From Kiritimatiellales bacterium (GTDB lineage Bacteria > Patescibacteriota > Gracilibacteria > Peribacterales > Peribacteraceae), in assembly GCA_021734665.1 (NCBI GenBank), contig JAIPIN010000004.1, positions 1-40,471 of the forward strand: 40,471 bases of DNA, in the 5' to 3' direction. Below, piece by piece: positions 4,460 through 36,436 of the stretch (position 1 is its first letter; the number at the start of each line of letters is the position of its first letter). The notes under the pieces are model-generated. The model was not told the origin of the DNA, ran no database searches, and saw nothing but the letters and a program-made list of their open reading frames with translations. The position numbers and the translations under genes were made by a program.

Positions 4460-4564
4460 AGAAAAGGAAAGAAAACACTACATACTGTGTCTTAGTACAG
4501 TGACATGGCACGATATATAGTTGTTTGCATGAGTGCAATCATATGTCATTGACAGAAGGCTGGT

Positions 4565-10679: not shown

Positions 10680-11132
10680 TTACTTTGCCAAGTGCGCAAA
10701 CGCCTTGTTTGCCTGTGCCATTCTAAGCACATCTTGCTTCTTTTTTACTGCTGCGCCCTGATCTGAAGAAGCATCCAGCAATTCCATAGCCAATTTCTGT
10801 GACATAGGCATACCCTTGCGATCTCTGGCTGCATTTATAATCCAACGGATTGATAATGCTTGCTGGCGCTTTGGTGGAACTTCTGTAGGAACCTGATATA
10901 CAGATCCTCCAACACGCTTTGGTCTAACTTCAATTAATGGGGTCACGTTAAGCAAAGCCTTGTTGAATATATCTTTTGGATCATCATTTGTACGCGTCTT
11001 AATCACTCCCAACGAATCGTTAAATACCTTACGTGCAATACTCTTCTTGCCACCTTTCATCATGCAACAGATGAACTTCTCGATCGTAGGATCGGAATCT
11101 TGTGGAATATACTGTTTGATTGGCTTAGCCAT
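10680..11132 (-). CDS. rpsG: 30S ribosomal protein S7
   Basis: 150 aa; IEVRPKRVGGSVYQVPTEVPPKRQQALSIRWI. Confidence 0.97.
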   Translation of the reverse strand: MAKPIKQYIPQDSDPTIEKFICCMMKGGKKSIARKVFNDSLGVIKTRTNDDPKDIFNKALLNVTPLIEVRPKRVGGSVYQVPTEVPPKRQQALSIRWIINAARDRKGMPMSQKLAMELLDASSDQGAAVKKKQDVLRMAQANKAFAHLAK

Positions 11133-22989: not shown

Positions 22990-23105
22990 GTCATCCTGAG
23001 TGCGCCGCCGGTCGCACTTCGATACGTCCCGCTAAAGCGTGACTACTCAGTATGACACGGCGGCGTGCCTGTCCTGAGTATGTCGAAGGGTATCGAAGAG
23101 TGACA
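22990..23105. repeat. composite intergenic palindromic element
   Basis: Interleaved inverted repeats GTCATCCTGAGT...ACTCAGTATGAC and CGCCGCCG...CGGCGGCG, plus CCTGTCCTGAGTATGTCGAAGG. Confidence 0.75.
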
Positions 23106-23170: not shown

Positions 23171-23884
23171 ATGCCAACTCCAAGTTTCACTCTAAAGTGC
23201 ACGCAAAATAAATTAATCACACACAATGTGTACGAAGTGCGATTAGAAAAACCGGAAGGGTTCACATTTAAACCCGGACAATTTGCATTGCTTGATGTTC
23301 CACTACTAGATAATCCGGATGACATTCAAGCTCGAGCATATTCAATTGCATCTACTCCAGATGAAGATGACTTATTGTTTGCAATTAAAATAAAACCAGA
23401 TGGAAGAGCCGGAAAGTGGGTAAAAGAATCACTTAAAGAAGGAGATGAAATACGCATTCAAGCTCCACTTGGCAACTTTACTTTTAACAAAGATAGCGAC
23501 CGTGATTGCCTATTTGTATGCACAGGAGTGGGCGCTGCACCATTCCGCTCTCAGATACTTGGCGCATTAAAAGCAGGAAATAAATGCAAGATGGATTTGA
23601 TAATTGGAGTGTTTGCAGAAGAAGATATTTTTTGGAGCGATCTTCATGAAGAAATTACTGCAACTCATCCAAATGTTCACGTACATATAACTCTCTCCGA
23701 ACCTAAACCAACTTGGGAAGGATACAAAGGAAGAGTGCAAGAAGTGATTCCCAATATAGAAAACTTTAAAGAGCGAAATATTTATCTATGTGGCAACCCT
23801 GCAATGACAACTAATGTGAAAAAAATGTGCCTAGAGGAATGGGAGATTCCTAAAGAGCAAGTGCATATGGAGGGATATATTTGA
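23171..23884 (+). CDS. ferredoxin/flavodoxin--NADP(+) reductase-like FAD/NAD-binding oxidoreductase
   Basis: FKPGQFALLDV...ARAYSIASTP; FVCTGVGAAPFRSQI; NIYLCGNPAMTTNVKKMCLEEWEIPKEQVHMEGYI. Confidence 0.9.
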   Translation: MPTPSFTLKCTQNKLITHNVYEVRLEKPEGFTFKPGQFALLDVPLLDNPDDIQARAYSIASTPDEDDLLFAIKIKPDGRAGKWVKESLKEGDEIRIQAPLGNFTFNKDSDRDCLFVCTGVGAAPFRSQILGALKAGNKCKMDLIIGVFAEEDIFWSDLHEEITATHPNVHVHITLSEPKPTWEGYKGRVQEVIPNIENFKERNIYLCGNPAMTTNVKKMCLEEWEIPKEQVHMEGYI

Positions 23885-24024
23885 CCTCACCCCTATCCCC
23901 TCTCCTACTTCGTTTTTCTCACCAAGAGGCAGGAGACATTCCAAAAGAGCAAGTTCATATGGAGGGGTATATTTGACCTCACCCCTATCCCCTCTCCTAC
24001 TTCGTTTTTCTCACCAAGAGGCAG
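23842..24024. repeat. 92-bp tandem duplication of the FNR gene 3' end plus spacer
   Basis: 23846-23932 and 23938-24024 align at a constant 92-nt offset. Confidence 0.9.
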
Positions 24025-31431: not shown

Positions 31432-32012
31432 TTAAATATCTCTATTTCCCCACTTTTGCGGATTTCGTGCAATATATGCTCGAATTCGGTTTAAATCGAT
31501 TTCGCCTCTTACTCGATGCTCATAATAATTTCGACTTGTGGTGAGCCTATCGAACCATGCCAAACTTTGGCTCCGGACGAATCCCTTAATTCATTTATTC
31601 TTTTCGCCACGGCGGATTTAAATGACCCAATAATTATGGGCAATGAATTTGGAATTGGCTTTCCAAAATGGCGGGACATGGATCGCGCGGGGGCGGCGGC
31701 ATGCCATTGTACGGGCGCGGATTTTCGTCGTAGGGGCACGGCATGCCGTGCCCCTATCCAAATAATTCCATGCATATGATTTGGCATCACAACAAATCGA
31801 TCCAATATAACATTCGAAAAATGATCGGAAATTTCAATCCATTTTTGCATAACAACCTCCCCACACTCATTCAATTTCATTATCCCATTTACAACTTCTC
31901 CAAAAATACATTCATTATTTACTGCATTAATCGTCACAAAATAAATCCCATTCATATATGAATGATTCTTTAAACGAACCGAACGTCTATTTGGCAAATC
32001 AATTTTCATCAT
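31432..32012 (-). pseudogene. REP-associated tyrosine transposase (RAYT, Y1_Tnp/HUH family), frameshifted
   Basis: NGIYFVTINAVNNECIFGEV...RFVVMPNHMHGIIW (HUH) ...SFKSAVAKRINELRDSSGAKVW, then a shift of frame to RNYYEHRVRGEIDLNRIRAYIARNPQKWGNRDI*. Confidence 0.88.
31731..31756. repeat. perfect 26-bp palindrome TAGGGGCACGGCATGCCGTGCCCCTA within the RAYT ORF
   Basis: Self-complementary by inspection; preceded by G to give GTAG at 31730-31733. Confidence 0.95.
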
Positions 32013-34411
32013 CCTTTTAAAACTTTGAATGCCATAAGGAATCCAGAAGTACACACTCCGCCAATAATCATGATCACCTCAACAATTGAAATCGGTGGAA
32101 GTGTGGCAACATCGCGCTGTGACCCTACTTCAATTGTTTCATTGGATAACGGCTCCTCAATCAAAAGGTTCGCAAACAACGCCCCTGTTAACACATCTTC
32201 CTCCGCCTCAACCTCATCTTCGTGCACAACATTCACATATTTTGTTTTAAGTGTAGGCAGAGGCTTTGCCTGCATCGGCTGAATCGAATCAGCAACAGGC
32301 TCTTGTTCCACTTGCTCCCGCACATCTAAATGTTCCACCGGACAAACATTCTTCTTCCCAGGTGTCGCCTTTTCCGTTACGCAATAAGACCCACCTACGC
32401 TCTTTGAGCTTCGGCGGGCAGGAGAAGCAGGCTCTCCCGCCAGTGTGACCACTGCACTATCCCGCACAGCACCGCCAGCTGCTGATACGAGGCCATGACC
32501 CATACGGCGAGAGAGCCCGCTCCTCAGAGAATAGGAATAATCTTTTTTTATTTTTGGATACGTTACGCCAATTTCAAACTCCCCCTCTGGCGATACAAGC
32601 CACACCTCATCCCCACCATTATTTAATGCAATACCTGTTTCATCTTTTGTAAGAACCAAAAAACCATGCGGAGCGATATCAAACTCTTCCGAGATTGTCC
32701 AATGTTTACTCCCGCCATCACGCACATCATCCAATACCCATCCACAAAGATTAAAACGCTTATCGGTTAGATTTAAAAGCTCAATCCACTCTTCTCCATC
32801 GCTTGGTGCAGGGAATATTTCCGAAATGATTACACCAGAAGAAACCGTTGGAATACATACAGAATCTTCTGTGTCCGCAGGTGGGAACACCTGCTCCTGA
32901 GTTAATGCTTGAGTTTCCTCTTCTTCTTCCTTTATCTCCTTTTCATCTTTTATCTCTTTTACCTCCTTCTCATCAATCTTCTCCCCTCTCACCTGCACCA
33001 ACAACGTCTCCCTCAACCCCATAGAACAATACGTATCCACCAACAACTCAATCGTATACTCCCCCACTTCATCAAAAGTATGCGACGTCGGATTGCATCC
33101 ACTTACTATTTCTCCATCACCGTAGTCCCATCTGCACTCTGCACTATCCAATGATCCTTCTTTAACTTCTGCAATCAAGTTGACTGAAAGTTTTTCACGT
33201 CCCCACACATCCCCAGATTGCATCACAATCATAGGGTCTAATTTCTTAAACGAGTTAATACTCCCAGGAGTTGGAATACAAAATGCAGTTAATGTTTCCG
33301 GATCCTGTGGATCTCTCCCAAAACTTACTTCCTCCGCAGTTTGTGCATACTCCAAAGAATCAATCAGTTCAGATCCATACCAAAGCTCTATAGTGTCACC
33401 CTGATTTCTAAGAGAAATATCTGTCTGCGTTTTACGCAAAGCAATCGCATGCAAAGCATCTAACATATAGTCATTAGAAATTTGATATTCACTACTCCCC
33501 TTCTTCAAAATCAAACCGTTTAAATTAACTGTTCCAGTTCCAAAGTTCATCAGCTCTATCCATTCTTGATCATCACGCCCAATGGGATTGGCTAATATTT
33601 CTGTAATTAAGATAGGAGGAAGAACAATGGGTTCGGGGTCGGGTTCGGGTTCGGGCTGAGGGTCGGGTTCGGGTTCGGGTTCGGAATTGGGGAACCACGG
33701 TGTTCCAAAAATCTCTAATCCATCATCGAATCCAACACAATCAGTTGAGCTTCTCCAATTAGATTCATCAGTACCAGAAATATTCGTATCAATCCTTTCC
33801 ATACTTGCTTTGGCTCCAGTACCAGATGGATTATTCCCTGCAAAAGGAGCACCACTACCATCATCCACTTCATCAACAAGAGCACCGCTGGCATTACGCA
33901 AACGCAGAAGTAACTTAGAATTCGGTAAACTCACAGAGCTTGTTACTAGATCGGGCTCATTTTTCAAACGTGAATTTGAACTGTTGTAATTGCTAATTAT
34001 AAAAAATTCATCTGACTGAATACTTATATCATCAAATTCAATCATCAAAACTTCTGCTCCATCTTTTATATAATTTAGTGTCCACTTATCAAGTACCACA
34101 TCATCGGAATCTGTATTTATCAATTCAATCCACTCATCCGCTGTACTTAAGTCTGAACCCATCCACATAAGCTCATTTATTACAATTTGAGCAGAGGTTT
34201 GCCTAGGCAGAATCAATCCTGCTAATAATGTAATAACAACTAATATGGCCAAACGAAGATGATTCTTTTTAAAAACAATTTTTCCATATCTCCTCTCCAC
34301 CTCAGAAGGGGGAGAGGATGGGAGAGGGGCCTTAGATACATATCTAAACAACTTCATACTAAGAAAAGAGTAACCATAAAGTTCTCTATCAAAACAGATC
34401 ATTGACCTCAT
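32009..34411 (-). CDS. secreted/anchored protein with three lamin-tail domains and a PKD-like domain
   Basis: IVINELMWMGSDLSTADEWIELIN, ILITEILANPIGRDDQEWIELMN and GVIISEIFPAPSDGEEWIELLN are LTD motifs; CRWDYGDGEIVSGCNPTSHTFDEVGEYTIEL is PKD-like; C-terminal TM. True start may be downstream of 34411. Confidence 0.85.
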   Translation of the reverse strand: MRSMICFDRELYGYSFLSMKLFRYVSKAPLPSSPPSEVERRYGKIVFKKNHLRLAILVVITLLAGLILPRQTSAQIVINELMWMGSDLSTADEWIELINTDSDDVVLDKWTLNYIKDGAEVLMIEFDDISIQSDEFFIISNYNSSNSRLKNEPDLVTSSVSLPNSKLLLRLRNASGALVDEVDDGSGAPFAGNNPSGTGAKASMERIDTNISGTDESNWRSSTDCVGFDDGLEIFGTPWFPNSEPEPEPDPQPEPEPDPEPIVLPPILITEILANPIGRDDQEWIELMNFGTGTVNLNGLILKKGSSEYQISNDYMLDALHAIALRKTQTDISLRNQGDTIELWYGSELIDSLEYAQTAEEVSFGRDPQDPETLTAFCIPTPGSINSFKKLDPMIVMQSGDVWGREKLSVNLIAEVKEGSLDSAECRWDYGDGEIVSGCNPTSHTFDEVGEYTIELLVDTYCSMGLRETLLVQVRGEKIDEKEVKEIKDEKEIKEEEEETQALTQEQVFPPADTEDSVCIPTVSSGVIISEIFPAPSDGEEWIELLNLTDKRFNLCGWVLDDVRDGGSKHWTISEEFDIAPHGFLVLTKDETGIALNNGGDEVWLVSPEGEFEIGVTYPKIKKDYSYSLRSGLSRRMGHGLVSAAGGAVRDSAVVTLAGEPASPARRSSKSVGGSYCVTEKATPGKKNVCPVEHLDVREQVEQEPVADSIQPMQAKPLPTLKTKYVNVVHEDEVEAEEDVLTGALFANLLIEEPLSNETIEVGSQRDVATLPPISIVEVIMIIGGVCTSGFLMAFKVLKG

Positions 34412-36397: not shown

Positions 36398-36436
36398 GGG
36401 CTGTAGAGACGTGCCATTGGCACGTCTCTACAGCCC
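36398..36436. repeat. perfect 18-bp inverted repeat with 3-nt loop
   Basis: GGGCTGTAGAGACGTGCC-ATT-GGCACGTCTCTACAGCCC; partial direct repeat GACGTGCCATTGG at 36386-36398. Confidence 0.95.

Follow-up and report, generated by a model that had tools for sequence, protein, structure and literature searches.

The closest described systems are the class 2 TnpAREP/RAYT enzymes, especially subclass 2.4 (Quentin et al. 2018, PMC6006769), in which the catalytic tyrosine sits in a Y---NP motif and an in-frame palindrome of REP type separates the HuH motif from that tyrosine, a published hallmark of the subclass. In the E. coli enzyme, Y115F has been termed a catalytic mutant (PMC8266576). Short repeats within protein genes, many of them in frame, are also known as intragenic GTAG/CGTC REPs and Rickettsia palindromic elements, with tRNA synthetase and DNA-repair genes among their hosts (PMC3733652). 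The gene analyzed here, on a 40,471-nucleotide stretch of DNA that we call the window, encodes the HuH, W, and Y---NP motifs of class 2 and carries the in-frame palindrome of subclass 2.4; it differs from that subclass in a second, unrelated repeat 3' of the W codon, which breaks the frame, whereas the in-gene REPs of PMC6006769 keep it. E. coli TnpAREP (PDB 4er8) aligns with a profile of intact relatives over HuH and the W...Y---NP segment, but that enzyme is intact and, in profile alignment, has a much shorter HuH-W linker. Compared with the elements of PMC3733652, the second repeat, a 23-nt word, lacks a GTAG foot and a stable hairpin, and its copy in the RAYT gene shifts the frame. A text search of PMC3733652 did not turn up the word, and neither the DNA words nor their encoded peptides matched the openly accessible papers searched.

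A RAYT gene split over two frames

An earlier note on this DNA had placed a RAYT gene on the minus strand at 31432-32012, and profile searches bear this out. The N-side half matches the NCBIfam profile NF047646 (REP-associated tyrosine transposase) over profile positions 3-64 (E 7e-6) and the C-side half over positions 107-135 (E 6e-4), both scoring below the curated cut-off, as do the intact relatives. The relatives also match PF01797, two of three above its cut-off, and a profile built from 29 of them matches PDB 4er8 (E 2.6e-7) with the HuH and W...Y---NP segment aligned. A Pfam scan of the two window halves gave no match, and a PDB search using a single window ORF returned noise alone; the family profile succeeded instead. 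A protein-level scan of genome contigs gave no relatives. This RAYT is the only one found in the assembly (1.05 Mb, 62 contigs, 82.7% complete), whose size and gene content suggest a Patescibacteria-type lineage. The features are as follows:

31432-32012, minus strand: RAYT (TnpAREP-like) gene split over two frames, both halves matching NF047646
31509-32012, minus strand: first-frame ORF (N domain, HuH, linker, W, repeat-encoded GSIGSPQ, out-of-frame tail to TAA)
31770-31778, minus strand: HuH motif codons (HMH of PNHMHG), from the profile alignment with 4er8
31731-31756, no strand assigned: perfect 26-nt palindrome TAGGGGCACGGCATGCCGTGCCCCTA in the HuH-Y linker, an in-frame in-gene REP of GTAG type with one foot mutated to ATAG
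31560-31562, minus strand: invariant Trp codon immediately 5' of the insertion (W159, invariant in 29 intact relatives)
31535-31557, minus strand: inserted 23-nt repeat unit TGGTTCGATAGGCTCACCACAAG
31432-31534, minus strand: stranded C-terminal part in the other frame, RNYYEH...YIARNPQKWGNRDI
31474-31476, minus strand: predicted catalytic Tyr codon (Y of YIARNP, equivalent of E. coli TnpAREP Y115)
36403-36431, no strand assigned: intergenic GTAG...CTAC double-foot REP just 3' of an RNase Y-like gene, the genome's single other match of this type
23075-23087, minus strand: TTCGACATACTCA, a further, diverged copy of the repeat core within the intergenic element at 22990-23105

Frame 1 runs from the ATG at 32012, which overlaps the stop codon of a lamin-tail-domain gene lying upstream at 32009-34411, through ...SSGAKVWH and GSIGSPQVEIIMSIE to a stop codon at 31509-31511; frame 2 reads ...SRNYYEHRVRGEIDLNRIRAYIARNPQKWGNRDI followed by a stop, ending at 31432. 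The gene has the HuH motif of class 2 Y1 HuH enzymes, but YIARNP, which class 2 members carry in frame with HuH, is encoded in a different frame. Because of this frame difference, the locus appears to be a RAYT pseudogene rather than a working member. The first-frame ORF retains HuH and lacks both the YIARNP tyrosine and the C-terminal subdomain, and its product is predicted to be inactive.

The window signatures NHMH, WH, and YIARNP compare with NH[IFV]H, WQ, and YIxNNP in subclass 2.4, and the relatives mostly have WQ. For the restored reading VW-[H/Q] of the earlier note, the sequence itself and the same-genus relative favor WH over WQ. That note had also taken WQRNYYEH for the active site, which does not hold: the NYYEH segment is conserved, but with the catalytic tyrosine of class 2 enzymes in Y---NP (PMC6006769), the predicted nucleophile lies 3' of NYYEH, in YIARNP. 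Its placement of the insertion "at the active-site segment" is not quite right: the insertion separates the invariant W from the downstream subdomain and lies away from the catalytic tyrosine motif.

The relatives give a measure of how unusual this state is. Among 118 RAYT loci scored, drawn from 191 relatives, 104 are single-frame, nine are broken, and five lack a C domain, at least three of these five being cut by the end of a contig or of the fetched stretch. The gap from W to the aromatic pair is exactly three residues in 86 of the 89 loci scored for it, the other three being motif-search misplacements or unresolved, and no insertion between W and the aromatic pair was seen among about 100 intact RAYTs. 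A dispersed repeat outside the linker occurs in only two of the nine broken genes, that of the window and one in another genome of the family (G035:C18, L042), where an exact 20-nt palindrome CCTGCCTGCCGGCAGGCAGG at 11009-11028 stands between FYE and HIIR and breaks the gene; allowing up to one mismatch, G035 contains 17 copies of this palindrome and the family 202 (control 0). The remaining breaks are stop codons or linker frameshifts. The two insertion points lie ~16 nt apart in the alignment; an insertion hotspot in the W-Y segment was considered and rejected, since two cases among 118 genes are suggestive but not significant. Separately, the RAYT frames of six genomes (G175, G185, G166, G153, G162, and G189) contain several in-frame TGA codons, which suggests that TGA may be read as an amino acid there.

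The 23-nt insertion and its repeat family

The earlier note's estimate of a split by about 23 nt proved accurate: exactly 23 extra bases are present, and the RAYT of a genome of the same genus (G003, L039; 41% identity to the window RAYT over the N half) is uninterrupted at the equivalent site (TGGCATCGA; longer stretch TGGCATCGAGGATATTATGAG). The placement of the unit slides by one base, with T at both edges, and beyond that ambiguity no target duplication is visible at the insertion. As 23 is not divisible by three, the frame is broken and a stop follows after a few codons. Both halves are open and motif-complete except at this break, the sole lesion seen, which argues that the lesion is probably young. 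The downstream 590-aa protein is absent from the 40 genomes searched except this one, so synteny gave no date for the insertion.

That the inserted bases are a copy of a dispersed short repeat, as the note had also maintained, is borne out by further copies in the window and the genome. The chance expectation of the core 13-mer in the RAYT gene is ~7e-5, and 100 shuffles of the window yielded not one match to the 19-nt word. The genome-wide search for the word that the note had called for gave, at up to three mismatches, five matches against none for the control. Three look true by inspection (the RAYT copy and those on contigs C25 and C24); a near match on C7 was rejected as chance by its appearance, and one on C37 was rejected for its resemblance to a native ClpC start. 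The C25 copy (G000:C25:14510; L153 about 4500-4530) forms the N terminus, MDSTSSPQ, of a predicted lipoprotein. No donor copy identical over 23 nt was found in the genome assembly.

Beyond this genome, the core TTCGAYARGCTCA has 463 matches over 71 family genomes, against five for a reversed-pattern control, and is present in 64 of the 71. A 22-nt form, GGTTCGAYAGGCTCACCACAAG, is exact in 49 stretches across GTDB, in Patescibacteria, Bacteroidota, Chloroflexota, Planctomycetota, Omnitrophota, Acidobacteriota, and other phyla. Alignment of 53 copies of this form reveals strong conservation beyond the search pattern at a single left-hand T alone (96%), and tandem copies of the word are spaced 23 or 24 nt apart. 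Based on this one conserved flanking base and the tandem spacing, the repeat unit would be ~23 nt, matching the excess in the RAYT gene, a close estimate because the right edge is fixed by the search pattern; its consensus is TGGTTCGAYAGGCTCACCACAAG. The likeness seen earlier between the inserted word and the 22990-23105 element is real but confined to the core (TTCGACATACTCA versus TTCGATAGGCTCA); that intergenic element is a composite of the words GTCATCCTGAG and TTCGACATACTCA, kin to the inserted repeat by the core alone. At 23830-24013, a 92-nt tandem duplication (91% identical) ends a reductase-like ORF and contains the word CTCACCCCTATCCCCTCTCC.

The word also occurs inside other genes. 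Of the 23 loci at which it is embedded by 20 residues or more in a stop-to-stop ORF of at least 150 aa, 18 use the GSTGSPQ frame (p 3e-9 versus equal use of five open frames), the effective n being below 23 since the DnaK and MsrA loci share descent. In GlyRS, CysRS, and MutM, the repeat-encoded residues appear extra in alignments to solved structures. Four Patescibacteria (L169, L173, L182, and L212) have the word at one and the same place in the C-terminal tail of DnaK, as AMYGSTGSPQ or similar, and an MsrA loop of two Kaiserbacteria (L205 and L210) holds it as GYAGGSTGSPQAAPTY. Dispersed and in frame within conserved genes, it thus behaves as an in-gene repeat of the RPE / intragenic REP kind and is usually tolerated; the RAYT copy is read in the tolerated frame (GSIGSPQ), yet its length disrupts the gene.

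The observations above bear on whether the break is real. If the break stemmed from an error of assembly or sequencing, or from an in-frame insertion compounded by a one-base error, the real gene would be intact or carry only an extra short GSIGSPQ-like loop; the in-frame GSTGSPQ copies within housekeeping genes and an insert length one base from frame-preserving both speak for such a reading. However, a 23-nt dispersed repeat is an improbable product of random assembly error, and no tolerated insertion at this position was seen in any of the roughly 100 intact relatives, so that we consider an error unlikely. With a real break, the insertion may at first have kept the frame and then suffered a one-base indel, since GSIGSPQ is the frame tolerated elsewhere. 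Two further points count against the pseudogene reading: the assembly is in 62 contigs and 82.7% complete, and it yielded no donor copy identical to the insert.

The gene's own REP and its bearing on the insertion

The linker palindrome at 31731-31756, which the earlier note overlooked, lies in frame between HuH and W. A perfect palindrome (arms of at least 9 bp) occupies the linker in 88 of 113 RAYTs, against 0.35 expected from simple shuffles; by the same measure, N domains have two and C domains three. Several linker palindromes recur identically elsewhere in the same genome (G035 and G036), and full GTAG...CTAC versions stand at G035:C6:99929, at G036:C36:10536, and within the linker of L040, the RAYT of G028. 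The linker REP is near-general in this RAYT class; an in-frame REP between HuH and Y is itself an already published feature (PMC6006769). Flanking GTAG REPs are absent from the window RAYT, the nearest double-foot REP being 4.4 kb off, at 36403-36431.

The inserted word is different from the GTAG REP kind on which RAYTs act. It has neither the GTAG foot nor the palindromic stem of those REPs: the unit alone has 4-bp arms and no significant hairpin (fold z 0.07), and the insert as a hairpin was rejected on that value; a longer family copy, on contig C24, does form a significant hairpin (z -3.7). Double-foot GTAG REPs have a median of three in RAYT-bearing genomes versus zero in genomes without RAYT (p 6.6e-5), the inserted type, counted by its TTCGA core, is slightly more numerous in RAYT-bearing genomes (a weak association, p 0.027), and the CCTGCC palindrome has no association with RAYT presence; these counts ignore phylogeny, and the linker REP itself raises the count in RAYT-bearing genomes.

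Could the enzyme have mobilized the repeat into its own gene? Since in-gene REPs are general in the class (88 of 113), a RAYT gene evidently makes a good target for its own REPs, and both the GTAG-type REP in this gene's own linker and the slight rise in TTCGA-core counts fit such self-inactivation. Nevertheless, a word that lacks foot and hairpin, is spread over many phyla, and follows RAYT presence far less strongly than double-foot GTAG REPs do makes it very improbable. Programmed frameshifting that joins the two frames into a functional product, as their still open and conserved halves might allow, hardly merits belief, since visual inspection of the junction revealed no slippery heptamer, the word splits no other RAYT at this position, and the intact relatives have the gene in one frame (104 of 118).

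Origin and meaning of the lesion

We consider it likely that a non-cognate micro-repeat recently turned the window RAYT into a pseudogene. The gene would already have carried its GTAG-type linker REP, in frame, as in most RAYTs of the class, when one 23-nt unit of the dispersed repeat TGGTTCGAYAGGCTCACCACAAG entered directly 3' of the W codon. Translation would then pass through the repeat as GSIGSPQ and terminate a few codons on, yielding a product that retains HuH and has lost the catalytic tyrosine and the C-terminal subdomain. We infer that the insertion arose within the organism's own lineage and that the repeat moves independently of the window RAYT. More tentatively, TGGTTCGAYAGGCTCACCACAAG may be a micro-repeat not described before, entering protein genes in many bacterial phyla, surviving mostly in the one frame that gives the flexible linker GSTGSPQ, and spreading independently of RAYTs, with RAYT genes among its casualties.

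These results provide a clear case, joined by a second from the same family, in which the repeat that killed a RAYT was probably no substrate of that enzyme. The case allows a test of whether REP numbers drop after loss of the enzyme: this genome has one other double-foot REP, compared with the median of three in RAYT-bearing relatives. It also reveals a very short repeat that inserts in frame into housekeeping genes across phyla.
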